DNA of 64,000 nt from Geitlerinema sp. PCC 7407 (GTDB lineage Bacteria > Cyanobacteriota > Cyanobacteriia > PCC-7407), in NCBI RefSeq assembly GCF_000317045.1, contig NC_019703.1, positions 1,786,501 to 1,850,500 on the forward strand, written 5' to 3'. The notes beneath the pieces were generated by a model that searched no databases, was not told where the DNA came from, and worked only from the letters and a program-made list of their open reading frames with translations. This document shows, piece after piece, positions 6,546-62,009 of this stretch; the first letter of the stretch is position 1; each line of letters opens with the position of its first letter. A program made the translations under genes and the position numbers.

Positions 6546-6557
6546 GGATCTGAAGGA

Positions 6558-24435: not shown

Positions 24436-24470
24436 AAGCGATCGCCTTCAGAACAAATAGGCGATCGCTT
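24436..24470 (-). terminator. Rho-independent terminator of the Ser/Thr-His kinase gene
   Basis: AAGCGATCGCCT (24436-24447) pairs perfectly with AGGCGATCGCTT (24459-24470) around an 11-nt loop. Read on the minus strand the stem is followed by TTTTTTATTATTTT. It begins ~60 bp past the stop of the kinase at 24532. Both arms are HIP1 sites. Confidence 0.8.
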
Positions 24471-24531
24471 ATGAGTCAAGATATAGCCGGTGTCTAAGCC
24501 TTTCTCCTGGTAGGCGAAAGGGGCCGACTAA

Positions 24532-27500
24532 TCACGCGACAGACTGATTGTCAGCGCTGTATCGCACAGGAATTGAGATCAGAATCTTCGTTCCTCTGCC
24601 CACCTCAGAGCTAATCTTCATCGATCCCTTGTGCTTCTCGATAATGGCATAGCAAATCGATAGGCCTAGACCTGTTCCTTTGCCAACCGGTTTGGTTGTG
24701 AAGAAAGGATCAAAGAGCCGTTTTTTGACCTCCTCGGGCATGCCAGCGCCATTGTCCATAATCTCGATTGTCAGAGCCTGATCGTCTTTGAGACCGGTGC
24801 GAATTCGAATTTCAGGATGATAATTTTCGTCCTGGTGACGACGCTCTTCCATCGCGTCAATGGCATTGTTCAAGACATTCATCAAAACCTGATTCATCTG
24901 GCTCGCATAGCAGGTAACTCTCGGAAGCGTCCCATAGTCGCGAATCAAAGAGATGGACGATCGATGATTTTTCTCTTTCAGTCGATGCTGCAAAATGAGG
25001 AGCGTGCTCTCGATCCCTTCGTGGATATCAACGGGCTTCATTTCGGCCTCATCGAGCCGCGAGAAATTGCGCAGGGACAGAATAATTTGACGAATTCGAT
25101 CCGCCCCCAGCTTCATCGATTGCAGCAGCTTTTGGAGATCATTGCGCAGAAACTCAAAGTCAATTTCTTCTAGCTCTGCGGCGATCGCCTCGTGGGGCTC
25201 TGGGTAATAGTGCTGGTACTGCTCTACCAGATGCAGCATGTCTTTGAAGTACTCATTGGCGTGGGCAATGTTGCCATAGATGAAATTAATTGGGTTATTA
25301 ATTTCATGGGCGATTCCAGCTACCATCTGGCCGAGGGAAGACATTTTTTCGGTCTGAATGAGCTGCGTCTGAGTTCGCCGTAGTTCTTCGAGGGTGCTGG
25401 AGAGCCGCTGATTTTTTTCGTGGAGTTCCTCAGTTCGCTGCTGGACTTTATTTTCAAGAGTGCAATTGGCATCTTCTAGCTGAACTTTGGCAATGCTGAG
25501 ATTGTGATACAGCAAAGAATTTTGCAAAGAAATAGCTGCTTGCACCGTCAGAAGCCGCAGGATTTCCAGTCGATTGCGGGTAAAGGCACCAGTTGTGAGA
25601 TTGTTCTCAAGATAGAGAATGCCAATCAGCTTGCCTTGGTTGTGAATCGGGGTGCACAACAAACTCTTGGGCTGATGCGTCAAAATATAGCGATCGCTGG
25701 CAAAATTGGTCGCGCTTCGAGCATCATCTAAAACCAGGGTTTCAGCGGTGCGAGCGACATAATTGATCACCGATTGCGGGATACTGCCGCTGCTCTCAGC
25801 AGTCTCCTTGGACAAGCTTTCCAGCGATACCTCGGTAGAGGCCGCAGAGAAACAGTTGAGGCTGCTTAGCATGACCGTTGATTGGGTATTGGGCGTCTGC
25901 TCCGCCGCAATGACCCATCGATCTTCGTGGCGCAAAAGCAGAACACAAGTTTCCGCTCCTGCATTTTCGAGGACTACTTTAATCAGCGTTTCTAGCAGTT
26001 TCTCAAGCTCAATTTCGCCAGAAAGAACTTGAGATGCCTTCATGACCGTTGCCAGATCCAAGGCCTCAGACATGGTCGAACTGCTGCGATCGCTCCCCGT
26101 TGTCGTGGTGCGAACTCTGACCGGAGTTGTGCTTTCTTCGGGTTGCAAAACCGAAGTCAGAAGATGGGAATAATGCTGCTCCAAAAACTTGACTTTGGCG
26201 ATCGCTCCCCAGCGAACATAGTCATAATAGGCATTGGCTAAATAGGCCTTGGCGATCGCCTCTTTTTCCCAAGTTAGATAGAACTTGGCTGCTAGCTCAT
26301 TGGCTAGTGCCTCCTCTTGCAAATACTCATTAGCTTGAGCATCGGCGATCGCGCAGTCATAAAGATCGACCGCCTGGGCCATCTGCCCGAGAACCCGCAT
26401 TTCCTCTGCCTGAACTAGTTCGTATTTATGCAAATAGTTAGCGGGTGAATGGTACGCCCACTTTTTGAGCTTGACCTGATTTTGGGCAACTTTTCCAAAT
26501 AAAGCTGCCTGATCCTCAGGTGCTGCTTCTGGAATTTGGGCGAGGGCTGTCAGGGACTGATAGAAACAAAAGATGGGAATAATGCTCTGACCCGCGACTC
26601 CGGCTAAGCACTGTTCGGCTTTACCCGCGAAATGCCAAGCCTGGGCATAATCACCAAACAGATAGAAAAGCTGTAGCTTGCAGAAGTAAAAATGCATCAA
26701 GGTGCAAACATCATTTGCCTCAAGATGCAGTGGCAAAATCGTTTCTTCGCTGTACGCGACCCCCGTAATTTGGCAAGGATGATCTGATTGACCCTGCAAG
26801 TTCAAAACAACTTGTCGATACAGCTCATTCCAATAGAGCGTACCGGTCTGCTTCATCTGTCGGATCGCTTCGCTGTAGGCGGCGATCTCCTGTTGCAAAA
26901 TAGAAAGATCTCGCCCCATAAAGTAAGCTGCATAGGAACAGGTCCTGAGAGAGTAGGCGGCAAACTCAAGATCTCCTGTTTCTAGACCCACTGAGTAGGT
27001 TTCTAGCAGGGGTTTGATCGTATCTTGAAGGTGATCTTTCCAATGACGAACTAAGCCATTGAAAGTTTGAATTGTTTTGGTTGTAACTGCCTTGGCAGAC
27101 ACTTTTGACAGTAGATCAGTTCCTAGCTTGCCAAACTGATAGCCTGCCTCGATATCGCCTAAGACCTCACACAAAATCAAGCCATAGCTTGCGTAGGCAA
27201 AGGCAGAAAAGGGTGCGTTGCCGTCGTGAATCGATAGATAAATCTGTTGACTAACAACTAGCAGAAATAGCTCGGGAACCACTTGATAGGAAAAGGCCGT
27301 AATGCTCGCTAAGATTCGCATCGCTGCCAGCGATCGCGCCTCGGTCATCATCGGCAAATCAATCAGTTCCTCAATTGGCCGGTCAGCCAAAATTTGATTG
27401 ATTCTCTCGAGGTCTTGCTGAATGTCTTGCTGCGTTGGGTTGAGCGGTAGACTAAAGCCTAGCTTTTCCAGGAAGCCTAGAGCGATCGAAACTGCTTCTA

Positions 27501-30111
27501 AAGCCTTGTTTTGGGCTCCAAAGGACTGAATAATTGCATCATGCACTTTGACCTGATCTAAGGCTGTTTGGCCATGAATAATGACTGGATTGGCAAAGAT
27601 ATTGACCTTCTCAAACCGCCCATCTAGATAGGCTGCTTCGGCAGCATCTTCATGCAAGGTCAGCGCTAGCTCGTAGTGATTTGACCAAGCATTGTCTGAC
27701 AAAAGAGAGATTCCGCTCTGAAAATATTTGATGGCTAGGGTGTAAGCGGTTGAGCTCTTTGCCTTTTGACCGGCGATCGCATTTAGCTGAGCGAGCTGAT
27801 GGCGATCGCTATCATTCTCAATCAGCTCCATTCCCATATTGAGCTGATTGACGATCTCAAAGATTTTTTCCTCCCACTCAGCAACCGGAATATTCCGAAG
27901 CAGAAGCTGCCCCATGGCCTGATGGGTTGCCTGCTTCTGGTCTATGGGAATCAAAGAATAAGCAGCTTGCTGGACACGATCATGCAAAAACTTATAAACG
28001 CAAGATTCGGCCTCTAGACTTTCAGAGAAGGCGTTTGAGAAATGGCTCTGGTTGACCTCTAAATGACCAGCTTGGCTGCCAAAGTCTTCTTCTTGAAAGA
28101 GCTTATAGCTATCTCCCTGAGGCAAAATCAAGTTCTCTTTGAGAGCAGGCCAAAGATCTTGAGCAACCTCGGCTAAAGATCGTTCTGAAACGATCGCTAA
28201 AGTCGATAGATCAAACTGATTTCCGACACAAGCGGCCAGCTTTAGAACCTCTTGAGTTTGAGTTGGTAGCTTCTGAAGCTGAGCCGCCACAAACTCGACC
28301 ACATCTTCTGTGAAAGATAGGGTGCGAATATCGCTTAAGCGCCATTGCCAGCAGCCACTGCTGTAGTCAAACGTGATGAGCTTATCTTCATAGAGAGACT
28401 TGAAGAACTGGCTGCTAAAAAATGGATTGCCCTGAGTTCTTTGATAAATCAAATCCGTCAGCAATTGGACATTCTCTGGCAGCTCGCTCAATGTTTCTGC
28501 AACGAGCTGATTGAGATCCTGGCCACTGAGAGGGGATAGGGCGATCGCACGAATGCTGACCTCGGCCTGACGCAGCATATCAATCGTGAGCATGAGGGGA
28601 TGGGCCGCCGTCACCTCATTGTCCCGATAAGCGCCAATGACTAGCAAATAGTGGCTATCAGCCTCGCTCAGCAAAAGCTGCATCAGCTTCAGAGAAGCAG
28701 TATCTGCCCACTGCAAGTCATCCAAGAAAATCACTAGGGGATGCTCTTGAGACGTGAAGACCTGAATGAACTTTTGGAAGAGTAAGTTAAAGCGATTTTG
28801 AACTGCGCTGCCGCTCAGCTCCGAAACGGGCGGTTGCGGACCAATGATCTGCTCTAGTTCAGGAATAACGTCAATAATGACCTGACCATTCTCCCCTAGG
28901 GCCGCCAAAATTTTGCTCTGCCACTGCTCAATTTGGCGATCGCTTTCTGTCAGCAGCTGATCCATAAGATCGCGCAGTGCCTGTACTAGCGCAGAGAAGG
29001 GAATATCGCGCTGAAACTGATCGAATTTCCCTTTAATGAAATATCCTCGCTGGCGCACAATGGGCTTGTGCACCTCATTGATAACGGCGGTTTTGCCAAT
29101 GCCTGAAAAGCCCGAAACCAGCATCAGTTCAGTAGCGCCCTGCTGCACCCGCTCGAAGGCGTCCAGCAAAGTATGAACTTCTGACTCCCGCCCGTAGAGC
29201 TTTTCGGGAATCACAAAGCGATCGCAGACGTCTCGCTCCGCCAGCGGAAAAGCTTGAATACTGCCGCTGTGCTGCCACTGTCGTTGACAAATCTCTAAGT
29301 CGTGACGCAGTCCCAAAGCACTTTGATAGCGATCTTCAGCATTTTTGGCCATCAACTTTCGGACAATATCCGAAAGAATGGCTGGCACCTCTGGATTGCG
29401 ATAAATAATGGGAGCAGGCTGCTTTGCAATGTGGCAGTGCACCAGCTCTAAGGGATCCTCTGACTGGAATGGCAAATGACCGGTCAGCAGTTCGTAAAAT
29501 GTCACACCCAAAGAATAAAAATCAGTCCGATAGTCGACTCCCCGGTTCATGCGACCGGTTTGCTCCGGAGAGACGTAAGCTAGGGTGCCTTCCAAAACGG
29601 CTGGACTCGTTGCAGTTTGAGTTTCTCGGAGCAGTCTAGAAGCGATGCTGAAATCTGTCAGCTTGACCTGCCGAGTAACGGGATGAATCAGAATGTTTGT
29701 GGGCTTAATATCTTTATGAATAACCTGATGCTGATAAAGCCCATCTAGAATAGTAGCGATCGCGATCGCAGTGTCGAAAAACTCCGCCAGCGATCGCACT
29801 TTACCATCCACCAAAAAATAGTCTCTGAGGGGAATTCCCCCAAAGTCTTCCATCACCAAAGCGAGGCGATTTTGATAATGCTCAAGGCTGTAGGGACGAA
29901 CAACCCCTGGCAGATTTAGATACTTGACGAGGGTGTACTGGTTTTTGAACTGCGCAAGCTCAGCCAGACTAGGGTAGAGATTTTTGAGCAGCTTAACGAC
30001 TACGGGCATCTGATCGCTCTCACGACACCCGCGATAAACCAACGTTCTAGAACTGCTGTAAATTAACTCGTTGAGGGTATAGCCGGGAACACTGATCAAC
30101 ACGTCCATCAT
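24532..30111 (-). CDS. Ser/Thr kinase - AAA ATPase - GAF - histidine kinase fusion
   Basis: 1859 residues, the trifunctional architecture found in filamentous cyanobacteria. Residues ~10-275 are a Ser/Thr kinase with catalytic HKDIKPTN (D134); the metal motif reads DFS at 153-155 in place of DFG. Residues ~295-560 are an AAA_16/STAND-type ATPase (Walker [10 protein letters not shown]; Walker [12 protein letters not shown]). A long TPR-like helical region follows (~650-1330), then a GAF domain (~1385-1540), a coiled coil, and a histidine kinase with [16 protein letters not shown] and [18 protein letters not shown]. No membrane segment. It probably integrates Ser/Thr and His-Asp signalling in the cytoplasm; no target is encoded nearby. 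The second Met (30108) is an equally good start. Confidence 0.95.
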
Positions 30112-30179
30112 AAAGCCAACTTTTCAGGGAACAGGGAAGCATAACGCCGTAACCAAAATTCATAGAAACTCAGGAGTTG

Positions 30180-30193
30180 TGTAATACATTACA
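30180..30193. promoter_or_regulatory. Inverted repeat upstream of the large kinase
   Basis: TGTAATACATTACA is a 14-bp inverted repeat (TGTAAT/ATTACA, 2-bp centre) about 70 bp before the kinase start. It resembles an operator by form only; the half-site spacing is 2 bp too short for the NtcA pattern GTA-N8-TAC. Confidence 0.25.
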
Positions 30194-30301
30194 AATAAAT
30201 CCCCTGGGAAACATCAGTTGAAACAACAGATTTTAACTAAAAGAACCTATCTTTAGACTTTTGACTGATTCCTTAAAAAAATAAATTCTAAATTCATAGA
30301 A

Positions 30302-30341
30302 ATTTGCCCCCTAAGTTCCAAAAGGAAGCTAGAGGGCAAAT
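30302..30341 (-). terminator. Interrupted hairpin after the heme-oxygenase-like gene
   Basis: ATTTGCCC (30302-30309) pairs with GGGCAAAT (30334-30341); inside, CTA pairs with TAG and TTCC with GGAA around a short A-rich loop. It lies 38 bp past the stop at 30379. The following T-run is weak on the minus strand. Confidence 0.5.
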
Positions 30342-30378
30342 AAAAATCGCTAAATTTTCGGTAGCCGATTTGCTGGTT

Positions 30379-31104
30379 TTATGCAGCGTTTACAGGCGAT
30401 CGCAAGGGTTCTTGGCGAGAATAAGTTTGGGCGTAGACCAAAAACTCCTGCATCAACTCATTGAAAAACTCAAATCCCCGCTCCACCACTTCCAGCGATC
30501 GCTGAAAAGTCTCTTCCGAGACCTCGAGATTGCGCAGGGTCTGCATGGAGTCAGGCATGTGAAGCGTGTGGGTGTTTTCTACTTGGTTGTGGCACATGCC
30601 AAAGTAGCGCAGCTCTTGCCCCGTTGTTGCCTGGAGCTGAAGCGCGATCGGCCGGGTCGCCCGAAAGAAAACGTTAGCCGTCACCTCGGCAACTTCGATC
30701 GCGACCAGCTTGAGAATTGGATCATCTCCTTCGGTGTAGCGCTCAAATCGGTAATACATAGAGCGCGCCACCCGCGTATGCTGGCTCCAAATAAACTTCA
30801 AAGCATCACTAAAGCGCATGGAATAGTCGATGCCCAGCTTCTCCAAATCTTCGATGAGCCACTGCCAATGAAAGTGCTCTTCCTCGGCATGCTGGTTGAC
30901 CATCGCTTGGAGCGGATCGGTCGTGGGTTCTTGCTTAAAAACCCGGTTGCACAGCTCACCAAATTCAAGGGCAAGCGGCGCAATCACCGGCGCGAATGAA
31001 AGCTTTTGGTAAGGATCAATTTCAGGGTCTGCTAAATACGCAAAGAAGGGGTGTTGCGCATACTCCTGATTTTTCTGCTCGATCAGTTCTAAGATGGCCT
31101 GCAT
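30379..31104 (-). CDS. Heme-oxygenase-like (HDO/TenA fold) putative metal-binding protein
   Basis: 241 residues, almost wholly helical by composition. It carries MVNQHAEEEHFHWQWLIEDLEKLG, EVTANVFFRATRP and CHNQVENTHTLHM, i.e. repeated E/H residues spaced as in iron-containing redox enzymes of the heme-oxygenase-like diiron superfamily. No exact family is recognised and the substrate is unknown. The ATG at 31104 has GGAGA 8 nt upstream; the longer frame begins TTG. A long inverted repeat lies ~50-80 bp upstream and may be an operator or leader hairpin. Confidence 0.6.
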   Translation of the reverse strand: MQAILELIEQKNQEYAQHPFFAYLADPEIDPYQKLSFAPVIAPLALEFGELCNRVFKQEPTTDPLQAMVNQHAEEEHFHWQWLIEDLEKLGIDYSMRFSDALKFIWSQHTRVARSMYYRFERYTEGDDPILKLVAIEVAEVTANVFFRATRPIALQLQATTGQELRYFGMCHNQVENTHTLHMPDSMQTLRNLEVSEETFQRSLEVVERGFEFFNELMQEFLVYAQTYSRQEPLRSPVNAA

Positions 31105-31609
31105 TCGCAAATTCTCCAGATAAATAATTCGATCGTTTTATGCACGCGATACTGTCATTAGAGAGAGCTCGCAAAACCTCTAATGAAGAGCGTGAAAAGT
31201 AGGTAATAAATCTCCTAATTCTCTGTAGCTACCTGTAGCAAATGGGTGAAACTGTAGAGGGGTGATGCGTTAAATCTTTTGCTCCACAGAAAAGGTTTTA
31301 GCTTGAAATCTTTACTGAAAGAATCCGTGGAAACACGATTTGTTTCCATTCATGAAGGCTGCTGCCTCCTGGCCAAGCCCTTAGGAGAATATCCGAGAAA
31401 TTAGCTAGTTCAGCCAGAAGCCTCACGTCCATAATCTCTGATTTGGCGTGAGATGAAGGCGCGTTTATGGCGGGGCAGTCGGTGAACCATGTTTGAGGCG
31501 AGAACCTACCAGCCCCGTCATGAACCATCTCTGTCGCCTCAAATCAGAAAATCATACTCTCCAGCTAAGTGGATGTATGCTGAAAAATCTCACCCAGTAA
31601 AACGTTTAA
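31105..31609. other. 505-bp gap with several inverted repeats, upstream of tnpB
   Basis: No convincing gene; short frames at 31298-31528 (minus) and 31489-31716 (plus) look spurious. Visible structure: CATTAGAG/CTCTAATG (31156-31185); TGGAAACA/TGTTTCCA (31328-31348, 5-nt loop); CTCACG/CGTGAG around 31422-31451; and TTTGAGGCGA/TCGCCTCAAA spanning roughly 31492-31543. The left end of the IS200/IS605 element probably lies in this gap, but its exact boundary cannot be fixed by eye. Confidence 0.45.
31156..31185 (-). promoter_or_regulatory. Inverted repeat upstream of the heme-oxygenase-like gene
   Basis: CATTAGAG (31156-31163) and CTCTAATG (31178-31185) are perfect reverse complements with a 14-nt centre, 52-81 bp before the start at 31104. 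Could be an operator or a leader hairpin. Confidence 0.3.
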
Positions 31610-32842
31610 GTGAGAACCGCTTACCAGCACCGATTGCGTCCAACCTCCAGTCAAGTCGCCTTAATGGGCGAGTGGCTGGAACTCTTGCGCAGACAGTACA
31701 ACTATCGTCTTGGTGAGCGGTTCTCTTGGTATGAACAAAACCGCTGCGACGTCACCGATTGCCCGCTAATTTGCCATCTGCCAGAGCTTCGAGAGAATCC
31801 TGACTTCTACTCTCAGAAACGAGACCTGGTGAACTCCAAGGCTCTGTTTCCGGAGTACCAGCAGATTTATTCTCAAGTGCTGCAAGATTGCATTGGTCGG
31901 GTGAAGAAGACCTTTGACCGCTGGCTCAGAGGAGACTGCAACGGCAAGCGAAGCGGTAAACCTCGGTTTAAGGGAGTAAACCGATATCGCTCATTTACTT
32001 TCCCGCAAGTTAAACAGGACTGTATTCAGGGCAAGCAGATCAATCTCCCCAAGATTGGCTGGGTGAAACTAATCCAGCATCGTCCCTTACCGGAAGGCTT
32101 CAAGATCAAGACCGCCACCGTCAGCTACAACGTCGATGGCTGGTATGTGACGCTGAGTCTTGAGGACGCATCGGTTCCCATCCTCACGCCTGATAGCCCC
32201 AGTCTTGAAAATACGATGGGGATTGACCTGGGCTTGAAGTCGTTTTTGGTGGACGACTCAGGGAAAGAGGAACCTATCCCCCAGCACTACCGCAAAGCCG
32301 AAAAGAGCCTGAAGCGGTTGCAGCGCAGTCTTTCACGCAAGAAAAAAGGCTCCAATCGCCGGAAGAAGGCGGTTAAACGCGTTGCCAAGGCGCACCTAAA
32401 AGTCTCAAATCAGCGCAAAGACTTTCACTACAAGACCGCAAACAAGCTTTTATCCAAAGGAAATCATGTTGCTCATGAAAAGCTGAATGTTCGAGGCATT
32501 GCCAGAAGCAAGCTGGCGAAGTCAACTCATGATGCTGGCTGGGGCCAGTTCCTGCAAATTCTGGCAATCAAGGCTGAAAGAGCCGGGTTGCTAACGATTG
32601 CGGTGAATCCCAGCGGTACGTCTCAGAACTGCTCTGGCTGCGGAGTCAAGGTTCCCAAGACACTTCAGGACAGGCTGCATACCTGTCCTAAGTGTAGGTT
32701 GATGCTGGACCGTGACCACAATGCAGCGATCAACATCAAGTATTTGGCGGTAGGGCATTCCGTCAATAAAGCTCAGGAAACGCCCGATGGGTTACCAGGG
32801 GTCACTGAGAAGCCTACACCGGATACGTCAGTATCGGTGTAG
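31610..32842 (+). CDS. tnpB: RNA-guided endonuclease TnpB (IS200/IS605 family)
   Basis: 410 residues, GTG start giving MRTAYQHRLRPTSSQ, the usual TnpB beginning. The RuvC-like nuclease residues are all present: first Asp in MGIDLGLKSFLVD, Glu in VAHEKLNVRGIAR, last Asp in LDRDHNAAINIKY. The zinc ribbon has CSGCG and CPKC. TnpB proteins cut DNA guided by an RNA made from the element's 3' end, helping the element persist. The protein looks intact. The TAG stop (32840-32842) lies inside the 3' arm of the terminal hairpin, so coding and guide-RNA sequence overlap. Confidence 0.92.
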   Translation: MRTAYQHRLRPTSSQVALMGEWLELLRRQYNYRLGERFSWYEQNRCDVTDCPLICHLPELRENPDFYSQKRDLVNSKALFPEYQQIYSQVLQDCIGRVKKTFDRWLRGDCNGKRSGKPRFKGVNRYRSFTFPQVKQDCIQGKQINLPKIGWVKLIQHRPLPEGFKIKTATVSYNVDGWYVTLSLEDASVPILTPDSPSLENTMGIDLGLKSFLVDDSGKEEPIPQHYRKAEKSLKRLQRSLSRKKKGSNRRKKAVKRVAKAHLKVSNQRKDFHYKTANKLLSKGNHVAHEKLNVRGIARSKLAKSTHDAGWGQFLQILAIKAERAGLLTIAVNPSGTSQNCSGCGVKVPKTLQDRLHTCPKCRLMLDRDHNAAINIKYLAVGHSVNKAQETPDGLPGVTEKPTPDTSVSV

Positions 32843-39503: not shown

Positions 39504-40799
39504 TTAGATCACCGTATTGTCAGCAATCACTGCATTCTTGAGAATCACCACAATACCGCTGCGAATGTAGAAGCCCAAATCCTCGCGGTTGGCCTCCTCC
39601 ACTCGGTCCTTGTTGATGATCTGGACATTGCGGCCAATGCAGGCATTCTTGTCCACAATGGCGCGGCGAATGATCGTATTCTCCCCAATGCCCATCGGCA
39701 CCTTGCCATTGCTCATCCGCTCGCCCGACTGACGCTCCGAATACGGCTGATAGAAGTCCGCCCCCATCAGCAGCGCATGATCAATCACACAGCCTGCCTC
39801 AATGCGCGATCGCACCCCCAGCACCGAATTCTGGATCGTGCAGTTCTTGATGATGCAGCCCTCACCAATGATCGACTCCGTCACGTGGCAGTCCAGCAGC
39901 TTGGTCGGCGGCAGATACCGAGGACGCGTGTAGATAGGCGCCTGCTCGTCATAGAAGCTAAAGGGCGGCCGGGGCTGCTTGGTCAGCGCCAGGTTGGCAT
40001 CAAAGAACGCCTCAATGGTTCCGATGTCCTCCCAGTACCCATTGAATAGGTACGCCTGGATGTTGTAATCCTTCGCGGCGCTCGGAATGATTTCCTTCCC
40101 GAAATCCGTCTCCTTCATCCCTTCTTGCAGCAGCTTGTGCAGCACTTCCCGCTTGAAGACGTAGATGCCCATCGAGGCAATGTAGGGCTTCTCGCGGGCT
40201 TCCTCTGGCGTCAGACCCAGCAGCGTCGTATCCACCGCCATCTCTTTCAGCGCGTCACCCTTCGGCTTCTCGCTAAAGGAGATCACGCGGCCCGAATCGT
40301 CAATCTTCATCAGGCCAAAGTCCGAGGCGCGGCGCTCGTCGATGGGCAGCACCGACAGCGTAATGTCTGCGCCGGTCTCGCGGTGACGCTCCACAAACTG
40401 GCGGTAGTCCATGCGGTAGAGGTGGTCACCCGAGAGGATCAGATACTCGTCGATGTCCCACTCTTCGAGGAGCCACAGATACTTCCGGACGGCGTCAGCA
40501 GTCCCCTGGAACCACTCGGGGCTCTCGGGGGTCTGCTGGGCCGCTAGCACCTCCACGAAGCCATCGGTGAAGCCCGAGAAGTTGTAGGTGCGGGCTAGGT
40601 GACGGTTGAGGGAGGCAGAGTTGAACTGGGTGAGAACGTAGATTTTGTAAATTTCGGAGTTGATGCAGTTGCTGACAGGAATATCGATGAGTCGATACTT
40701 GCCAGCAAGGGGGACGGCGGGCTTGGCCCGCAGCTTGGTGAGCGGGTATAAGCGTGTACCAGCACCGCCTCCCAGAATGATCCCAAGTACTTTTCTCAC
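39504..40799 (-). CDS. glgC: Glucose-1-phosphate adenylyltransferase (ADP-glucose pyrophosphorylase)
   Basis: 431 residues, full length. Makes ADP-glucose, the committed step of glycogen synthesis in the cyanobacterial cytosol. Signatures: [62 protein letters not shown]; the C-terminal left-handed beta helix and the terminal [18 protein letters not shown] complete it. Regulated by 3-phosphoglycerate and phosphate in this family. Start is GTG with AGAGG 7 nt upstream. Followed at once by the P-loop kinase gene. Confidence 0.97.
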
Positions 40800-41041
40800 A
40801 AAAAACCTCTTATCTTCTGCCGGTCGGTTCCCAAACTTAGTGTCCGCCGACAGGGATCAGTTTGCAAGGGTCTTGGGAAAGATCTCCATTGTCTGTAATG
40901 TGGGCTACAAGCGGCACACAGCCTTGATCCCCCCACCAAATCCCCGATGGGATGATACCCACCGAGCGCCATCAGGCTAGAGGCGATCGCCTGTTCTCAG
41001 ACAGCTCTGCAATCAAGCTTGATATCTAAACCCTATGCCTT

Positions 41042-41503
41042 TTAAGGAAGTTCACGCATTAACTCCATAATGGCGGAAACTGTGTGGCAATCTCTACATA
41101 CTGGTCCTGTGCGGCAATGAGGAACTGCGTTAACTTCATCAAAAGCTTTTAGAGGTCTAGAGAATGTATTGACTATTTCCTGCTTTTCGCTTGAGGATAT
41201 TGTTTCCCTGCTCAGAATCGCTCTAGCTCTGGCCAAACTCTCGGCATCTAATTCAACTGTAAAGTCAACATAGACCTTGCTTTGAATCTCGACTAAATCT
41301 TCTGCTGTATTACTTGAAAAATTATCAAGTTGAATTTTAAGCGTATTGTTTTCAGTAGTGATATTGATATCTTGATAGATTTTCTGAAATCTTCGCAGTA
41401 TATATTCCTCTAGCCTTTCGGTGCTTTCAGTGGGATCAGGCATTGCATCCTCTCGAAAGCTTTCTTGCAACAGCACGAAAAGAGCAAATTGTATTTTGTT
41501 CAT
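41042..41503 (-). CDS. Unknown small protein next to the caspase-STAND gene
   Basis: 153 residues from the ATG at 41503, which has AAGGA 6 nt upstream; the longer frame is rejected. Not recognised. The N-terminal 80 residues look helical then beta-like (LEEYILRRFQKIYQDINIT, NTLKIQLDNFSS, SKVYVDFTVELDAESL); the C-terminus carries HCRTGPVCRDCHT with three cysteines and two histidines, a possible metal site. It lies 66 bp after the caspase-WD40 gene on the same strand, shares its AT-rich, HIP1-free composition, and is probably co-transcribed, so it may be part of the same conflict system. Confidence 0.65.
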   Translation of the reverse strand: MNKIQFALFVLLQESFREDAMPDPTESTERLEEYILRRFQKIYQDINITTENNTLKIQLDNFSSNTAEDLVEIQSKVYVDFTVELDAESLARARAILSRETISSSEKQEIVNTFSRPLKAFDEVNAVPHCRTGPVCRDCHTVSAIMELMRELP

Positions 41504-41569
41504 TGCCAATCCTTGTCTGAATTGTGTCTGAATCTGCAAAATTTAAGGCATTAGCCATTGTCTTAAATT

Positions 41570-44500
41570 TTACTTTGTTTTTAATGTTAGTATCGCGTCT
41601 ATTTTATCCAGAGATTTGCGTGTTTTTTCTGATTTCTCAAAACGAATCTTCTCGTTCTTTCTGATGGCCCACAAGCGAATTTTTTTGTCATCTCGACCTG
41701 CGGAAACAGCAAAGGAAGCATCGGACGAGATTTGAACTGACGAACTTTCACTAATAAGAGTTCCGATCTGTACTGGATTTGAGTTTAGAAAGAATTTATC
41801 CTCGAGATTAAAAACCATAAGGTTCTTACTAAGATCAGAGATGAAAACCTTTGAATCATCAGAGCTGATAGCTGCATCAACAGCGCCAGCGCCAGCATTG
41901 GCCTTAAGCAGGATTGGTTCAGTGGATTTTGATAATCTAAGGTCCCAAAACCGCATAACGTCATTTTCCCCTATCGAAATCATCTTCTCACTGCCATTGA
42001 TAAAGGCTAGAACGTAGACTGCTTTATCGTATGTCTTTGGAAGCGCTTTGCAAGATCGCTGAAGAGGTAATAGCTGACAAATGAATATATTCCCTTTCTC
42101 GTCGGCAACTGCTAGCTTATGACCTAATTTGTCAAATTCAACTTCCTTAATTTGTCCGATTGTCGGTATCTTTAATGAAATTGAATTCTTGTTTACCTGA
42201 TCGTGATTTTGAATCCTGATATCCCCTCTGCTGCCGACGAATGCTAGTTGATTGTCAGGCATAAATTTGATGCCTACAACTGACTGCTGATTTCCTGATT
42301 TTGTATTTGGAAAGGGTGTAAAAGACCTTTCATCATTCCCTTGAATATTCCAAACCCAGACTGTGCCAGATTTGTCGCCTGACGCAATCAAATTATTGTC
42401 ACTTGCTATGTCAATTACCCAAACGTCTTCTTGATGTTTCTCAAAAGTTTTGACAGGCAGTCCGTTAGTTGGGCTATCAATAGGCCAAACTTTAACCTTG
42501 CCGCCAACTCCCCCTGCTGCAATCAGTTGATCGTTGGGGCTAAGAGTTGCTTCAACCAGTACATTTTCATAAGAGAAATGATTGATTTCGCGAACTTCAG
42601 AAACAATTTTGAGTAGATTGGGTGGAGTGAGCGTGTTAGGCCCTTGTTTTTCAGCAATAAACTCTAAGGCTTTTTTTGTGTGTTGAAGGGCTTCAAGCTG
42701 TTCTTGAAACTTAAGAGCGGTCTCAGCATCGGTGGTTATGGATTGAAGAGTGGCTTCTTGGATCGAGCGGTTAACTTGTCGGATGGAGTGGATGATGGTG
42801 CCTGCTAGAACGAGGATCAGGGTGATAACCAGGGTTCCGGCTCGCAGTTTGGTTTGGCGGCGTTTTATCTCGGCCATCACCTTGTCTTCGAGAAGTTTGA
42901 CCTGCTGCTGGCGATCGCGATCGCGCTTGTCCAAACTCCGCTGCACAAACTGCTCCTCTTCTGGCAACAGTCTCGGCTGCGTGCGCTCAATCCACTCCGC
43001 GATCTTGGCGAGGCGCGCGCCCGACAACAGCGCCTCTTCTGATTCCCCAAAGCGGGTCTGCCAAACGTGACAGTCCGTTTCCAGGAGTCGCTGGAGCCGG
43101 ATGTCGTCGCGGTCCTCAGTGATCCAGTTGCGCAGGAGGTCCCACTCGGAGAGCAGCGCCTCGTGGGCGACCTGGACCCACTCCTCGTCCGCGATGATGA
43201 GGCGCTGTTGCTGATCGGCCAGCAGGCACACCATCTGCTCGATCCGCGCCTCAGGGGCGATCGCCCGCAGGCGCGCCCACGAAACGCGGCGGCGCGTGAC
43301 CGTCTCGTTGTCCTCGCCGATCTGCACCAGCTCCTTGAACAGGCAGCGCACCAGGGCCTGATCGTCCTCCGAAAAGCTCCGATAGAGGATGGTGGCGCGG
43401 CGGTTGAGAGCGCCTTGAACCTTGCCGATGTCGTGGTACTTCTCGGCGGTGAGCTGGCCGGTGGGAGACTCCGCCTGCTCGATGCAGACCTGCCACAGCT
43501 CTTTGAGGGCGTATTGCAGGAGGGGCAGAGCGCCGGGCTGACCGAGCACATCCTGGGCGATCGCATTGATCAGGCCCTCTTCGAACTGGACCCCGTGGAG
43601 GGTCGCCGGACGAGCGATCGCCTGGTGAAGTTCGGCTAGGGTCATGGGCGTCACCATGTAAGCCGACGGCTGGGTGCGGTTCACCAGGGTGGCCGATTCG
43701 GGGTAGGTGGCGCAGCGATCGAGGAAATCCCCGCGAATCGCAATGATCACCCGGGCTTGGCTGCCCTCCCGCGTGACCTCGTCGGCCAGGAGCCTCAGCA
43801 GGCGCTGGCGATCGCTGTCTTGGGACCAGTGCGTAAAAATCTCTTCAAACTGGTCGATCAGCAGCACGTAGGGCTGGGGCGATCGCGTCAGCTCCGCGAT
43901 CAGCCCCGCAATCTCGCTAAAGCTGTGAGTGCTCGGCATCACCAGGCGCGTGGACCACTGGCTGCTCCCCGGCAGGCGATCGCGCGCCAGCTCTGGCAGC
44001 AGGCCCGCCCGCAGCAGCGAAGACTTGCCGCAGCCCGACGGCCCGATCACCGTCAGGACCTGGCTGTCGAGGAGGCGAATCGTCAGATGGCGCACCGCCT
44101 CCTCGCGCCCGCAAAAATAGTCGGCGTGCTCTGGCTCAAAGGTGTACAGCCCCCGGTAGGGGTTGGCGGTCTGGAAGGGATGCTCTGAGGGGATGGGCTC
44201 TAGGGGCGGGTAGCGCAGCAGCGTGATGTAGCGGCCCCAGCCCATGCGCAGCGGCTCCTGGCCTGACTGGCGCAGGGTCCGGCCGACGCAGTCAAAGAGG
44301 CGATCGCCGCTGATATCGCCATTGATGTCCGCGTTTTCGCGATCGAGCCCCTTCAGCAGTGCCTCCGTGAAAACACTGTGCTCCTCACCATAGAAGGCTT
44401 CCTCGGTTTGGCGGCTGGCCGTGACGATGTAGTAGTCCCCGCTGGTGTTGAAGCTGGTGAGCTTTTGCCTCAGGAGGTCGTGCTCCAGAAAATGACCGCT

Positions 44501-44935
44501 GTGGCAGCAGTCCAAAAAGACCATCAGGCTGCTGAGCTGGGACTTGCCAATCAGCAGGTTGAACTTGTAGAGCGAGAGGCCGGGCTGCTGGGGGCTGTAG
44601 TCCGAAGTGGCCAAAAAGCCCGATCGCTCGTCGGTATCTGGGTCTGTCTGGGTGACGCCGTGGCCGGTGTAGTAGATCAGCCCTTCGCCTTGCTGGGCCT
44701 GCTCCAGCAAAAAGTTTTTGATCGTGTCGATCAGCTCTGGGGCGCTGACGGCGCGCTCCGCCACTTCGTAGCAGTTCTCGGCTGCTTTCCACTGAGCGGG
44801 GAAGCGCCGGACCACATCGAAGTTACCGTGACGCTCGAGGACCTGGGCCACCGCTTCGGCATCCCGCGCAGCATTGGGCAGAGAGGCGAGGTTCTGATAC
44901 TGGCTGATACCGATGATGAGGGCGTAGCGGGGCAT
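41570..44935 (-). CDS. Caspase-like peptidase - nSTAND NTPase - membrane segment - WD40 protein
   Basis: 1121 residues. Residues 1-230 are a caspase/metacaspase-like (C14) peptidase: catalytic His92 in YYTGHGV and Cys144 in FLDCCHSGHF. Residues ~255-640 are a STAND ATPase of the nSTAND1 type (NPYRGLYTFEPEHADYFCGRE, Walker A GPSGCGKSS at 298-306, Walker B LLIDQFEEIFTHW). A single membrane helix follows (GTLVITLILVLAGTIIHSI, ~700), a short coiled coil, then six or so degenerate WD40 blades (~780-1100; KVKVWPIDS, TVWVWNIQG, MRFWDLRLS, IRLWAIRKN). Such proteins are thought to switch on the peptidase when the C-terminal repeats sense a signal. Composition changes from GC-rich with HIP1 sites to AT-rich without them around residue ~695-730. 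ATG at 44935 chosen over the longer frame. Confidence 0.9.
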   Translation of the reverse strand: MPRYALIIGISQYQNLASLPNAARDAEAVAQVLERHGNFDVVRRFPAQWKAAENCYEVAERAVSAPELIDTIKNFLLEQAQQGEGLIYYTGHGVTQTDPDTDERSGFLATSDYSPQQPGLSLYKFNLLIGKSQLSSLMVFLDCCHSGHFLEHDLLRQKLTSFNTSGDYYIVTASRQTEEAFYGEEHSVFTEALLKGLDRENADINGDISGDRLFDCVGRTLRQSGQEPLRMGWGRYITLLRYPPLEPIPSEHPFQTANPYRGLYTFEPEHADYFCGREEAVRHLTIRLLDSQVLTVIGPSGCGKSSLLRAGLLPELARDRLPGSSQWSTRLVMPSTHSFSEIAGLIAELTRSPQPYVLLIDQFEEIFTHWSQDSDRQRLLRLLADEVTREGSQARVIIAIRGDFLDRCATYPESATLVNRTQPSAYMVTPMTLAELHQAIARPATLHGVQFEEGLINAIAQDVLGQPGALPLLQYALKELWQVCIEQAESPTGQLTAEKYHDIGKVQGALNRRATILYRSFSEDDQALVRCLFKELVQIGEDNETVTRRRVSWARLRAIAPEARIEQMVCLLADQQQRLIIADEEWVQVAHEALLSEWDLLRNWITEDRDDIRLQRLLETDCHVWQTRFGESEEALLSGARLAKIAEWIERTQPRLLPEEEQFVQRSLDKRDRDRQQQVKLLEDKVMAEIKRRQTKLRAGTLVITLILVLAGTIIHSIRQVNRSIQEATLQSITTDAETALKFQEQLEALQHTKKALEFIAEKQGPNTLTPPNLLKIVSEVREINHFSYENVLVEATLSPNDQLIAAGGVGGKVKVWPIDSPTNGLPVKTFEKHQEDVWVIDIASDNNLIASGDKSGTVWVWNIQGNDERSFTPFPNTKSGNQQSVVGIKFMPDNQLAFVGSRGDIRIQNHDQVNKNSISLKIPTIGQIKEVEFDKLGHKLAVADEKGNIFICQLLPLQRSCKALPKTYDKAVYVLAFINGSEKMISIGENDVMRFWDLRLSKSTEPILLKANAGAGAVDAAISSDDSKVFISDLSKNLMVFNLEDKFFLNSNPVQIGTLISESSSVQISSDASFAVSAGRDDKKIRLWAIRKNEKIRFEKSEKTRKSLDKIDAILTLKTK

Positions 44936-45090
44936 GGCAGGATGGCGTAAGGGCGATCGCCCAGAAGGCAAAGTGATAAATGCTACCCGCGATTCTAGCC
45001 ACAGTTTTTTCTAAAGTCAGGGTTTTTTCTGAGCTACACTCAAACTTTTAAGAAACTTCATTAACCCCTAGACGGAGATTTGCAAACGCC

Positions 45091-45447
45091 ATGGCCCAGC
45101 TTCAGCGCCTCGACATCGTTGGCGATGATGGTCAAACCATCGAAATTTTTGTGGAAGAAAAAGACGCCCCGGTGTTGGCGACCTCTCCCAACCGGGACGG
45201 CAGACCCAGTATGGGGGCCGGCAGTCCCAGCGTGAAAATGCAGCAGATGCAGCAGGTGATTCGCGGCTACGCGACCTATGCCCTGAACGCGTTCAAGGAT
45301 TTTTCGGCGGCTGAGGTGGAAGAGATCACCCTCATGTTTGGGGTCAAGCTCAGCGCCAGTGCGGGGATTCCCTATATCGCCAATGGCACCACAGACAGCA
45401 ATCTCGAAGTCCAGGTCAAGTGCCGCTTCCCAGCCAAAGACGGCTAG
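45091..45447 (+). CDS. Trypsin-co-occurring domain 1 (Trypco1; CU044_2847-like) protein
   Basis: 118 residues: a beta-rich N-terminus (LQRLDIVGDDGQTIEIFVEE), a low-complexity middle, a helix (MQQVIRGYATYALNAFKDF), and the diagnostic end EITLMFGVKLSASAGIPYIA followed by a last strand. This fits Trypco1 (PF19493), a domain that travels with trypsin- or caspase-like peptidases and STAND NTPases in bacterial conflict systems. It is divergent from the caspase-nSTAND-WD40 gene, 155 bp between starts, so a shared promoter region is likely. Activity unknown. Confidence 0.75.
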   Translation: MAQLQRLDIVGDDGQTIEIFVEEKDAPVLATSPNRDGRPSMGAGSPSVKMQQMQQVIRGYATYALNAFKDFSAAEVEEITLMFGVKLSASAGIPYIANGTTDSNLEVQVKCRFPAKDG

Positions 45448-57669: not shown

Positions 57670-58785
57670 CTAGTTTGGCAAGTGCTCAGGTAGCGGCGGC
57701 GCGGGCTGAGGGGGGCGAGGGAGCGAGGCTGCTCGGCGCTCAGCAATCAGCTTGGGCCGCAGATAGAGCTGCTCGACCAGGACCGACGCGCCTGCAAACC
57801 ACGGCGGCACGATCACGGCGCCCAAAATCCCCAGTAGCTGCACCCCTCCCAAGACCGATAGCAGCTGATACAGCGGATGCACGCCCACGGAGGACCCCAC
57901 CAGCAGCGGATCGAGGATGTAGGTCTCGACGTTTTGAATAATCACGAACAAAATCAGCACCCAAACCACCAACCATCCGCCCTGGGCAAGGGCGACGACG
58001 AGGGCCGGGATAGCGCCGAGAATGGGACCCAAAAAAGGAATCAGATTGGTGACACCGGCGATCGCCCCTAGACCGAGGGCGTACTGCGGCAACCCTAAAA
58101 AGCTCAGGCCCGCCGTCGTCGCGATGCCCAGCACCACTGACACCAGCAGCCGTCCCCGAATGTAGCCCCCCATCCGCTGACTGATCGGCCCGACCTGAGC
58201 CGCGAGGCGATCGTCCCAGGGCTTGGGGAAGAGGCGCACGAATCCCCGAACCAGCGTTTGGCTGTCGGCCAGCATGTAGCCCGCGATGAACACCGACAGC
58301 ACCAGACTAAAAACTCCGCCCAAAATCCCCCGCGTGATGCCGTAGGAGCGCAGCACCACTTGCTGACTCGATCGAATCACCCAGTTGGTGAGGGACTGGG
58401 TGTCGAGGAGCTGGCGGATCAGCTCGGGGCGAGTGTCGCTGATGCGCAAGACCCACTGCTCAATGAGCGATCGCAGGGTTTCGGCGTAGGCGGGCAGCTG
58501 GCGGATCAGCTGCTCGATCTGCTCAAAGACCGTTGGCCCAATTACCAGCCCAACCCCAGTCAGGGCGAGGAAAATCAGCAAGTACGCCGAAATCGCCCCC
58601 AGCCACCGAGGCACGCGATAGCGCTCGGCCCAGTCCACCATGGGTGCGATGGAGGCCGCCAGCACTACCGACACCATCAAGATCACCAGCAGGCTCCGCA
58701 ACTGCCACAGCACCACGAGCAGCAGCACCGACCCCACCACAGTCAGCAATCCCGAGAGAGAAAGCGAAATTCGCTGTTCAGACAT
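57670..58785 (-). CDS. AI-2E family transporter (UPF0118)
   Basis: 371 residues, about eight membrane segments, with the family's central motif GITRGILGGVFSLVLSVFIAGYMLA and the conserved AIAGVTNLIPFLGPILGAIPALV, then LDPLLVGSSVGVHPLYQLLS. Family members move small molecules or ions (some sodium/proton antiport, some autoinducer-2); substrate unknown. The ATG at 58785 gives MSEQRISLSLSG; a TTG 27 bp earlier is in frame and the ribosome site sits unusually close to the ATG. Confidence 0.88.
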   Translation of the reverse strand: MSEQRISLSLSGLLTVVGSVLLLVVLWQLRSLLVILMVSVVLAASIAPMVDWAERYRVPRWLGAISAYLLIFLALTGVGLVIGPTVFEQIEQLIRQLPAYAETLRSLIEQWVLRISDTRPELIRQLLDTQSLTNWVIRSSQQVVLRSYGITRGILGGVFSLVLSVFIAGYMLADSQTLVRGFVRLFPKPWDDRLAAQVGPISQRMGGYIRGRLLVSVVLGIATTAGLSFLGLPQYALGLGAIAGVTNLIPFLGPILGAIPALVVALAQGGWLVVWVLILFVIIQNVETYILDPLLVGSSVGVHPLYQLLSVLGGVQLLGILGAVIVPPWFAGASVLVEQLYLRPKLIAERRAASLPRPPQPAPPLPEHLPN

Positions 58786-59213
58786 ACCTTCTAGGCCGCT
58801 CCGCGATCTCAACCAATCTCACAACCTGAAGACTAGTGTTACAGAGCAAACCTGACTTGCGCTCTGGCGATCGAAAGGTTTTTGGGGAAATCCCTCAATT
58901 AGTGGAGAAGTGAAGAGCTTGACTGCCTTAATGGCTAGTTTCTTTCCCCACTGCCAGCTAATCCAATGTAAGTACAGCTTTGGGAGCCGAGACAGATGTT
59001 TTAAAGTAACGTTAGAGGTAAAAAATCTCTTTCAAAAAACGTAAGTAATTGCTTACTAATTAATAAATTGATACTCCCTTCAATGTGCCAGGATTGTAGT
59101 GTGTGCAGCTCTACTTAGGCTTAAGGACATAAAACCTCCATAATCGTCTGACAAAGCTATCTAATAGGAAGCATTAACATAGCTAGTATTATGAGCTGGC
59201 TGTAGATTCAACA
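58786..59213. other. 428-bp AT-rich gap at the left edge of the defence-like island
   Basis: No gene recognised. Composition falls sharply from ~58,860 onward and HIP1 sites stop. It would hold the promoter of the AI-2E gene and the end of the druA-like transcript. No tRNA or attachment-site repeat was found. Confidence 0.5.
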
Positions 59214-60287
59214 TTACTGGTCAGAATATGATTCTAGGCTGGCCTGCAAGACATCAAGTCTGGGAGTGACCCATCTTTTATGCCAGTAACTTACTAAATC
59301 TCTTTGGTTGAAACTTTTCCAAACTACTCGATTTGTTTTTCCTAACAGATACTCTTGCCAATTCTCAGCCAGCGTACAACGGTAATATCCTCGCTGCCAC
59401 CCAATGCTAAGCATTTCCTCTGATAATCCAAGCTCACGTAAAGCTCTTCTCAAGGTACGCATTTTCCAGTTTGGCCCTTGCCCAAATTTGTAAGTTTCAA
59501 AGGTATCTTCTTGAACAACCTGTCTGATTAGTTCCCAGCTACCATTAGCCGTTATGTGAAGATGGCTTTGCCCTTTCGTGTAATTTATAAATTCCCAATT
59601 GATCAAGCGGTTGTAAATTGATGATTTTCCAAAAGCTCCTAACGTATCAATATAAGCAAGATAAGGTTTTTTGTTTTCTCTGGTAATAACTGAAAAACTA
59701 TCTTTATACTTTTGATAAAAATCTTTGCGAACTTTTGGAAACATTAAAGTGAGAGCAACTAACTTGGAGCTAAGAACCTGATTGTAAGGAGGAATAGCTC
59801 CAAGAATATAGGCAGTCATACAATTATATAGACGTTGTGTCTTTTGATCTTTTGTCCATCCAATAGATTCATCATCTCTAACACCCAAGCCAATAACAGG
59901 ATCACAAAGACCAACGATGCCAATCAGTTTGTTATTCTGACGATCAAAGACAAAATATCGAATACGTCTACCATAACCAACCGTAACGGGAACAGACCAA
60001 TGAGATGTAGCATATGCCCAAAGGCGTTGATGTTCATCTCTGGATTCAACTGTAACAAGGTAGGGATTAATTTTAGATATATCTATGTCTGATGGTTGTG
60101 CAAGATATTTCTGAACCTTACTCTTATATTTTTGGCCTTTTAAGTTTGTTCGCTCAGCTAATTTTCGCTGAACCTCTCTAAAGTCTCCAACAATAACTTG
60201 ATGTTGCTTTTCATTCCATATAACTCCATAGTCTCTTAAGTTTTGAAGAATCTTTCGTTTAAGAGCTTGCTTTTGCTTTTCTTCCAT
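59214..60287 (-). CDS. DruA-like protein (DUF4338)
   Basis: 357 residues. Matches DUF4338, the domain of DruA of Druantia anti-phage systems. Features: YLVTVESRDEHQRLWAYAT, NNKLIGIVGLCDPVIGLGVRDDESIGW, VLSSKLVALTLMFPKVRKDF and a core YIDTLGAFGKSSIYNRLINW, which replaces the more usual ETFVD...GT.Y.A.NW. The biochemical role of DUF4338 is unknown. ATG at 60287 preferred to the overlapping GTG at 60290. Last gene of a three-gene row, 44 bp after the HerA-like gene; AT-rich and free of HIP1 sites, unlike the host background. No druB, druC, druD or druE accompanies it. Confidence 0.8.
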   Translation of the reverse strand: MEEKQKQALKRKILQNLRDYGVIWNEKQHQVIVGDFREVQRKLAERTNLKGQKYKSKVQKYLAQPSDIDISKINPYLVTVESRDEHQRLWAYATSHWSVPVTVGYGRRIRYFVFDRQNNKLIGIVGLCDPVIGLGVRDDESIGWTKDQKTQRLYNCMTAYILGAIPPYNQVLSSKLVALTLMFPKVRKDFYQKYKDSFSVITRENKKPYLAYIDTLGAFGKSSIYNRLINWEFINYTKGQSHLHITANGSWELIRQVVQEDTFETYKFGQGPNWKMRTLRRALRELGLSEEMLSIGWQRGYYRCTLAENWQEYLLGKTNRVVWKSFNQRDLVSYWHKRWVTPRLDVLQASLESYSDQ

Positions 60288-60331
60288 CACGTTTTGCCTG
60301 AGAATTTATGAAGTACGATCCTCAAGCTGAA

Positions 60332-61996
60332 TTAATCTTTGAATCTAGCTTCTGGGTATACTTTCTCCCCTACCAGCTTTTCAAATTCAGTAACTCGAAC
60401 AGGAAGGGCAAAGGCTTGGTCTGACGAAACCATATAGAGATTACCGGCAATCGTCTCACGTTGAATAAAGTTTGAGATCACTCCATCATAGTTGATATTG
60501 GACTTCACAAGTGCCTTGATATCATCAGAGTTACCCATATGGAAGGAAAAGAAATTTTCTGCCTGAGTCCGGATTTCATCAGAAATTGCAGAAGGACGTT
60601 GCGTTACGGCGACTAATCCAAGTCCAAATTTACGTCCTTCTTTTGCAACTCTGACAAATGGATTGGCATTAGACTTAACGAACTCCTGAGATAAGACATT
60701 TTGAGCTTCCTCCACAAAAACAACGGCATTAACAACCTTCTCTATTTCATCTGAAGTAAAGTTTTCCTTGTTACTCTCAAATAGCTTACGAACTAAAATA
60801 GTTGAGATAATGCTGGCATCCATATTGTCTTTCAGCGACAAATCAACGATGACAGTTTTTCCTTCCTTTAAATATTTGAATACATCTTCTATAAGCTTCG
60901 ACGTTCTAGAGTGTAAATTACCTTCATCGATCAGATGGCGAATCCTTTTTCGAATCGCCATGATCGTTTTTCGAGCAGAAACATCTTCTTTAACATTTCC
61001 TTTTGCATCTTTCTTCGGCTCACCAAAGAAATCAGAAAAGTCTCTGTAAAGGTTGCTTGGGGTTTCGACATAATCATCAATATTTTCAATGAAATTAGAA
61101 ACACCGTCTTCATCAAGATATAGAAGAAAAGATTTCATTACTTCAGAGAAGCCTGCTCCGAAATTTAATATATCGCCCACTGCCAAGTGCTTGTGCATAT
61201 TGAGAGCAACTTTGCCGCCAGAAATAAATCTTTGCTTTTTCGTATAGTCTTCCGGAAGTTTCTTGTCAGTGTAAACAACGACATTATTTCGAATTCGATC
61301 GTCATCAATGTCGCCCAAACCATATGTATGAGTGCCACGCAAGAAATACTCTCCATTTAAATCGAAAATTAACTTTCCGTATGACGTATCACGAGTCATG
61401 TGATAGAGGAGTACTTTAACAAGATTGGTTTTCCCAAAGCCAGATTGGGCGAAAACCATTGTGCGCTTGTTACGCAGCTTTTCGATCTCAAACAGAATTG
61501 GACCTTTATCTTTAAAGACAGTTTCTCCTACGCAGAGATATCCAATCTCAACACCATTTTCATTAGTTTTGTTGAGAATAAATTCTATTTCACGCTTGTT
61601 CAGATGCCTCGCAATGTACGAAACAACTGGCAATTTTCTTACAGCCGTTGTGAAGGAAATTGTAGAGCCACTGTCTGTAAACGTACCTAGAATTCGTACT
61701 TTATAGGTATAGCTAAACATTTTCTGCTTATCTCGCTCAGAAAGCTCTCTTTCTGCAATTCGAGCATAATGTACAGCAATTAAAGTTTTATCCTGTGACT
61801 TAAAAATCGGGTCTTCGTCATAGATTTCAGCCTCGACTCTTGCGAGATACTTTGTATTTCCCTCATCTTTCGGAGTTAGCACGATGAAATCACCAGTTTG
61901 CGGACTGGCTTTAGCATCCTCATAAGAGGAATAAATTAGTAATGCATCTTCAGTAGTTTTCTGACCGTAAAGAACGCCAAAATCAACCTTTCCCAT
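60332..61996 (-). CDS. HerA-like DNA-translocating ATPase
   Basis: 554 residues. N-terminal HAS-barrel-like domain (~1-135), then a HerA/FtsK-type ATPase: Walker A AQSGFGKTNLVK (183-194), FDLNGEYFLRG (~211-221), a helical insertion (~280-380), Walker B AVVFVEEAQNVL (~424-435), and AVTQRPSAISDEI (463-475), followed by MGNSDDIKAL. HerA forms hexameric rings that pump DNA and pairs with NurA nuclease. It starts 13 bp after the NurA-like gene with GGAGA 9 nt before the ATG and is followed by the DruA-like gene; surely one operon. Confidence 0.9.
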   Translation of the reverse strand: MGKVDFGVLYGQKTTEDALLIYSSYEDAKASPQTGDFIVLTPKDEGNTKYLARVEAEIYDEDPIFKSQDKTLIAVHYARIAERELSERDKQKMFSYTYKVRILGTFTDSGSTISFTTAVRKLPVVSYIARHLNKREIEFILNKTNENGVEIGYLCVGETVFKDKGPILFEIEKLRNKRTMVFAQSGFGKTNLVKVLLYHMTRDTSYGKLIFDLNGEYFLRGTHTYGLGDIDDDRIRNNVVVYTDKKLPEDYTKKQRFISGGKVALNMHKHLAVGDILNFGAGFSEVMKSFLLYLDEDGVSNFIENIDDYVETPSNLYRDFSDFFGEPKKDAKGNVKEDVSARKTIMAIRKRIRHLIDEGNLHSRTSKLIEDVFKYLKEGKTVIVDLSLKDNMDASIISTILVRKLFESNKENFTSDEIEKVVNAVVFVEEAQNVLSQEFVKSNANPFVRVAKEGRKFGLGLVAVTQRPSAISDEIRTQAENFFSFHMGNSDDIKALVKSNINYDGVISNFIQRETIAGNLYMVSSDQAFALPVRVTEFEKLVGEKVYPEARFKD

Positions 61997-62009
61997 AGTT
62001 CAATCTCTC

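Follow-up and report, generated by a model that had tools for sequence, protein, structure and literature searches.

The window, which is the whole stretch of 64,000 nucleotides that was analyzed, contains a caspase-STAND gene with a divergent Trypco1 gene on one side and a small gene on the other. We propose that this is probably an NLR-like receptor locus, in which Trypco1, the caspase and nSTAND are constant, whereas the WD40 tip and the gene at its 3′ side are exchangeable; the functions given below are predictions throughout. The exchange, its limits, and the joint movement of the tip and the 3′ gene were demonstrated in relatives of the window locus.

Organization of the caspase-STAND locus

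The window belongs to a cyanobacterial genome of 4.68 Mb in a single contig. The features of the locus are as follows.

45091–45447, plus strand: Trypco1 gene, 118 residues, divergent constant partner (PF19493, E = 2.4e-19; NF041216, E = 1.1e-20)
41570–44935, minus strand: caspase-nSTAND1-TM-WD40 protein, 1121 residues (Pfam matches and nine-protein alignment)
44273–44929, minus strand: Peptidase_C14 domain with His92 and Cys144 (Pfam; residues checked)
43052–44161, minus strand: nSTAND1 NTPase, end of the conserved head (PF20703, E = 6.5e-104)
42782–42847, minus strand: hydrophobic helix, residues 697–718, at the head/tip junction (Kyte-Doolittle peak of 2.2 at residue 697)
41666–42550, minus strand: WD40 repeats of the exchangeable tip, limits approximate (WD40/beta-propeller matches, residues 790–1090)
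41010–42780, no strand: AT-rich block with the tip and the 153-residue gene, putative exchanged cassette (change points; same segment replaced in relatives)
41042–41503, minus strand: 153-residue gene, 3′ of the caspase gene, within the cassette (ORF; GC 0.39, GC3 0.33; probable family member)
41357–41503, minus strand: EILK/FQKIY-type domain in the first ~49 residues of the 153-residue protein, with two probable helices (HMM, 14.3 bits; hhalign, P = 4e-5)
41081–41119, minus strand: Cys/His cluster HCRTGPVCRDCHT of the 153-residue protein (sequence)
39504–40799, minus strand: glgC, right-hand anchor of the locus (gene order common to Nostoc and G404)

The receptor ORF of 1121 residues starts from the ATG at 44935, which is preferred to the TTG at 44971 because homologues begin with MARYAL. 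Pfam assigned Peptidase_C14 (PF00656, E = 6e-16) to residues 3–221 and nSTAND1 (PF20703, E = 6.5e-104) to residues 259–628, and also detected WD40 (E = 3e-16). His92 (in GHG) and Cys144 (in DCC) are present and invariant in an alignment of nine proteins, so that the p20-type domain and the His-Cys dyad of C14 caspases and orthocaspases were both found. The most hydrophobic 19-mers begin at residues 697–703. STAND proteins have an N-terminal effector, an NTPase switch, and C-terminal repeats as a sensor, and the same tripartite layout was seen here: the effector is N-terminal, the NTPase has Walker A (IGPSGCGKSS) and B motifs, and the repeats are C-terminal. Thus, Pfam, hydrophobicity, and the alignment agree with the earlier note, which had described a fusion of a C14 peptidase with intact His92 and Cys144, a STAND switch, a membrane helix, and WD40 repeats. 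Other caspase-STAND and STAND-WD40 proteins of the window genome are encoded at 1998633–2000699, 2177073–2178329, and 2182132–2183439 of the same contig (G000:C1).

The order of the caspase gene, the 3′ gene, glgC, a kinase gene, and dnaJ was the same in the window, Nostoc, and G404. The immediate neighbours of the window locus are glgC, an AAA_33 P-loop kinase-like gene, and genes for DnaJ, TIGR02588, and DUF2391. A scan of the locus for promoters and terminators gave sites no more numerous than in shuffled sequences.

Exchange of the tip and the 3′ gene in relatives

Full-length relatives were gathered from GTDB contigs and from two genera, Nostoc and Microcoleus. Congeneric pairs of loci from Nostoc and from Microcoleus showed DNA identity of about 90% or more over Trypco1, caspase, and STAND. 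In these pairs, identity was lost at ORF nucleotides ~2050–2460 (codons 685–820) and was absent from there across the tip and the complete 3′ gene, after which it was regained (at least 88%) just before glgC in Nostoc and before the next conserved gene in Microcoleus. The Nostoc receptor lies beside glgC as in the window, and Microcoleus shows the same pattern at another chromosomal site. Congeneric proteins had heads that were 90–94% identical and tips that were 25–38% identical. The converse case was found in L167/L169 and L162/L295, where the tip and the small gene were 99–100% identical in DNA and the flanks 88–98%; such blocks are what recent block transfer would leave.

The head and tip trees conflict. 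The tip group formed by L164 (Microcoleus), L170 (Symplocastrum), L173 (Leptolyngbya), and L088 and L283 (Nostoc) was rejected by the heads (p-AU 2.7e-10), and although Nostoc and Microcoleus each form one head clade, the tips rejected a Nostoc clade (p-AU 0.003) and a Microcoleus clade (p-AU 0.0002), all these values being descriptive because the groups were picked after the identities had been seen. Nostoc tips were 54% alike when the 3′ genes were of the same class, compared to 32% otherwise (permutation p = 0.0008), while Nostoc heads showed no link to the 3′-gene class (86% versus 88%). In Microcoleus, the association of tip and 3′ gene over six loci was not significant (p = 0.10).

The same region could be an ordinary hypervariable spot, where rapid evolution of the WD40 part coincides with insertion of unrelated genes ahead of glgC. 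WD40 repeats do diversify quickly, and transposase-like ORFs, recognized by eye, adjoin L084. However, the left breakpoints fall together at a single domain junction and preserve the reading frame, the blocks of 99–100% identity lie within more diverged flanks, and tips from different genera group together in conflict with the head tree. This explanation is already disfavoured for Nostoc and Microcoleus, and we consider it very unlikely overall, although less firmly so for the window itself.

The AT-rich block of the window locus

A two-change-point maximum-likelihood fit delimited an AT-rich block at 41010–42780 with a log-likelihood gain of 109. Its GC content was 0.40, compared with 0.63 for the head and 0.54 for the glgC side. 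The left edge of the block is codon 718, directly past the membrane helix, and is covered by the range of the Nostoc breakpoints (e.g., nt 2156, which is codon 719); the right edge is 32 nt beyond the stop codon of the 153-residue gene. GC3 was 0.33–0.38 in the 153-residue gene and the tip, and 0.83 in the head. The block edges and the common GC3 indicated that the 153-residue gene goes together with the tip and is separate from the head. The searched set contained no genome congeneric with that of the window, and for this reason the exchange in the window itself rests on composition and synteny, from which we infer that 41010–42780 is an exchangeable cassette. The window tip was the most divergent of the set (~20% identity to all others), and long isolation of this tip instead of recent exchange is possible; relaxed selection can also account for the AT-richness of the block. 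A search of the window genome for spare tips yielded nothing but ordinary WD40 proteins. Window positions 24000–32000 and 58000–64000 are also AT-rich (GC 0.47–0.49 and 0.38–0.48, respectively, versus ~0.62) and are possibly acquired islands.

Contents of the 3′ slot

The 3′ slot in relatives holds small proteins, a papain-like protease, or a spare WD40 tip, or it is empty. In Nostoc, it contains a convergent papain-like peptidase (PF00112) in six loci, an ORF of 64–83 residues in three loci, and a 121-residue protein in L292, whose head and tip are broken; it is empty in L287, whose tip has a Cys-rich tail. Small co-directional proteins occupy the slot in Microcoleus, Symplocastrum, and Leptolyngbya. 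Two further Nostoc loci carry WD40 ORFs in the slot: L086 has a spare tip at 4328–5404 behind the main gene, 82% to the resident tip and with a Cys-rich tail like that of L287, and L298 has a second WD40 ORF at 5810–8399 behind the main receptor gene.

A convergent papain-like (C1) protease between the receptor and glgC or the next gene was seen in L163, L168, L281, L282, L285, L290, and L291. The C1 proteases of the slot keep the Cys motif QGxxxSCTA or a similar one, with the His not located. Region 7329–9592 of L292 is a decayed receptor with stops in the head and a lost tip, in which the 121-residue gene is still open. The tip C-termini mostly end with C-x2-[WFL]-[LI]-x2-Y-[LS]-...-C, which is absent from the window and L287 tips.

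A constant head, a swapped C-terminus with its 3′ gene, and spare tips behind the main gene also form the pattern of polymorphic toxin tips and their immunity genes. If the resemblance extends to function, the 3′ protein would restrain its cognate tip, and the locus would serve kin or strain recognition. The tip is a WD40 propeller and no toxin, however, the head is a caspase-STAND protein with no secretion module, and the several loci with an empty slot or a convergent protease indicate that restraint is not obligatory; we regard this reading as improbable. Alternatively, the 3′ proteins could be effectors or substrates of the caspase that are freed by cleavage. In line with this, a protease adjoins a small variable protein, a separate Peptidase_C1 is present in the Nostoc slot, and a published precedent exists in nucleases made as proenzymes, which a trypsin-like protease encoded nearby activates (PMC12799240). 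Substrates should track their protease, yet the caspase is constant and it is the tip with which the 3′ gene moves, which makes it less likely that the 3′ proteins serve as caspase substrates. Moreover, enzymatic or pore-forming domains were not recognized in the small 3′ proteins, and we rate this role as quite improbable. The preferred reading is that of an accessory protein matched to its own tip.

The 153-residue protein

The 153-residue ORF is co-directional with the caspase gene and starts 66 nt past its stop codon, with AAGGA upstream of the ATG. An ORF of at least 150 residues in any frame was obtained in only 0.25% of shuffles of this stretch. The protein matched no Pfam, NCBIfam, or PADLOC family above the cut-off. 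BLAST-type searches gave no full-length homologue in 386 cyanobacterial genomes, where only short weak matches appeared, and no convincing homologue in GTDB contigs, viral contigs, plasmids, or phages.

Several small proteins of the 3′ slot (L162, L294, L295, L164, L170, L173, and L292) share an N-terminal EILK/FQKIY domain, MNxLEASLEILKIV...ILExFQKIYxxI, which occurs twice in some of them. We define the family here by this N-terminal motif of ~45 residues and by location in the 3′ slot of a Trypco1-caspase-STAND gene, which is where the 153-residue gene sits. An HMM built without the window protein ranked it as the top non-member among 16,469 ORFs (E = 0.025), and its score of 14.3 bits was matched by 0 of 20000 shuffles. 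Comparison with the family by hhalign gave P = 4e-5 and a probability of 70%, but over 15 aligned columns only. Membership of the 153-residue protein through its N-terminal ~45 residues is thus probable, not proven. In wider searches, the model gave only short weak matches beyond Trypco1-caspase-STAND loci; a match in L277, which has neither a caspase nor a WD40 neighbour, was examined closely and taken as noise.

The earlier note had called the small protein unrecognized and possibly a new component, and had proposed a search of all genomes with a count of neighbours. The first point stands for database families, although synteny has now provided a probable family. As a component, the protein does travel with the WD40 tip, but it is not conserved and occupies a variable slot. 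The cassette exchange of sensor and 3′ gene does not figure in that note. The search itself produced no full-length homologue, while the N-terminal ~45 residues probably match 3′-slot proteins beside caspase-STAND genes in other genera.

An AlphaFold2 model of the protein had a pLDDT of 43 and was unusable. Its CXXCH was set aside as a haem site from the sequence, where no export signal was evident by eye. Other kinds of Cys cluster are found in the small proteins of L292, L066, and L084 and in the tip tail of L287.

The divergent Trypco1 gene

The Trypco1 call, which the earlier note had left to be decided by PF19493, holds: the protein scored 70.2 bits, above the Pfam gathering score of 24.6. 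In relatives, Trypco1 lay head-to-head with every close homologue of the caspase-STAND gene. Conversely, a head-to-head caspase gene was found in 40 of the 87 Trypco1 loci examined, which were ranked by similarity to the window Trypco1 and so form a non-random sample biased to its clade. This head-to-head pair of Trypco1 and caspase genes is widespread among cyanobacteria. PMC7159879 places Trypco1 beside trypsin-like peptidases and pairs caspases with an alpha/beta-hydrolase instead, and no divergent Trypco1-caspase pairing was found in the available literature on Trypco1. The earlier statement that Trypco1 travels with peptidase/STAND systems is therefore borne out for caspase-STAND genes by the 40 loci, whereas the published partner is a trypsin-like peptidase; the caspase pairing is an addition to the published associations.

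The window genome has a second Trypco1 at 1603671–1604072 (G000:C1; L063 7651–8091), with no caspase match nearby. In L090, L091, L103, and L107, Trypco1 is divergent to a gene that resembles cobD/cbiB by eye, which suggests a conserved non-caspase context.

Proposed mechanism

We propose that recombination between related cells would swap the tip and the 3′ gene in one step, with the conserved head as one anchor and a conserved neighbour (glgC in the window and Nostoc) as the other. The exchangeable part would begin near the membrane helix, run through the whole WD40 propeller, and include the 3′ gene, which is that of the 153-residue protein in the window. The WD40 tip may set what is sensed, either an invader or a non-self signal. 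nSTAND would then assemble at the membrane and the caspase be switched on, acting on cell proteins near the membrane so as to kill or arrest the cell. Trypco1 presumably works with the constant head, and the small 3′ protein could be an accessory matched to its own tip as a co-sensor, bait, or restraint. More speculatively, and with low expectation, this may be a polymorphic self/non-self locus of filamentous cyanobacteria, in which a constant caspase-STAND death receptor has a WD40 tip and a matched small co-receptor or restraint that are inherited and exchanged as alleles, a counterpart of the fungal NLR-WD40 incompatibility genes.

Cassette exchange may thus be how bacteria alter what their cell-death receptors recognize. 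Near-identical heads with different tips would permit a direct test of tip recognition and of the role of the small partner by tip swaps, with or without the 3′ gene, in one backbone. Breakpoints and co-exchange also provide function-blind criteria for finding partners of STAND sensors.

Comparison with known systems

The locus resembles the VMAP ternary systems (Kaur et al. 2020, PMC7159879) in that Trypco1 is beside a peptidase with an NTPase switch. In those systems, Trypco1 occurs with trypsin-like peptidases and MoxR-vWA, whereas its partner in the window is a head-to-head caspase-nSTAND gene. No MoxR, vWA, or VMAP genes were found in the flanking ORFs examined, and with glgC, AAA_33 kinase-like, DnaJ, TIGR02588, and DUF2391 as neighbours, the locus was not assigned to this class. 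The EACC1-caspase two-gene system (NF047832; PMC7159879) similarly has a caspase fused to variable C-terminal domains, and some such domains on conflict-system caspases carry TM helices or nSTAND1 (PMC8195603). That system has a 5′ EACC1 gene, where the window caspase has Trypco1 instead; the EACC1 model had zero matches in the flanking ORFs scanned, and the caspase scored 91.2 bits against the NF047832 cut-off of 140, which places it outside the system.

Polymorphic toxins (CdiA-CT/CdiI and Rhs; PMC3150448) share the exchange of a tip and 3′ gene behind a constant head as well as spare tips. Exchange of the C-terminal tip with the 3′ gene was observed in relatives and is likely for the window. 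Those proteins deliver a toxin, whereas the present one is receptor-like; a caspase-nSTAND head and a WD40 tip were found in place of a trafficking head and a toxin tip. In DGR-diversified sensors (PMC10907252), diversification likewise affects the sensor of a STAND conflict protein, but it proceeds by reverse-transcriptase mutagenesis of a lectin domain, as opposed to whole-cassette replacement here.

Variable domains on conflict-system caspases (PMC7159879), DGR-driven sensor diversification (PMC10907252), and tip-plus-3′-gene exchange in polymorphic toxins (PMC3150448) were thus already known, and the open literature searched did not describe a STAND sensor being exchanged jointly with a 3′ gene at fixed sites. 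Avs and bNACHT, the bacterial NLR-related STAND defence proteins, share the order of effector, STAND NTPase, and C-terminal repeat sensor. In contrast to these, the present locus type shows a same-site swap of the sensor and the 3′ gene, which bears on the question of how the specificity of bacterial NLR-like receptors changes. The part that would set specificity behaves in these loci as an allele that is exchanged while its chromosomal site stays the same.
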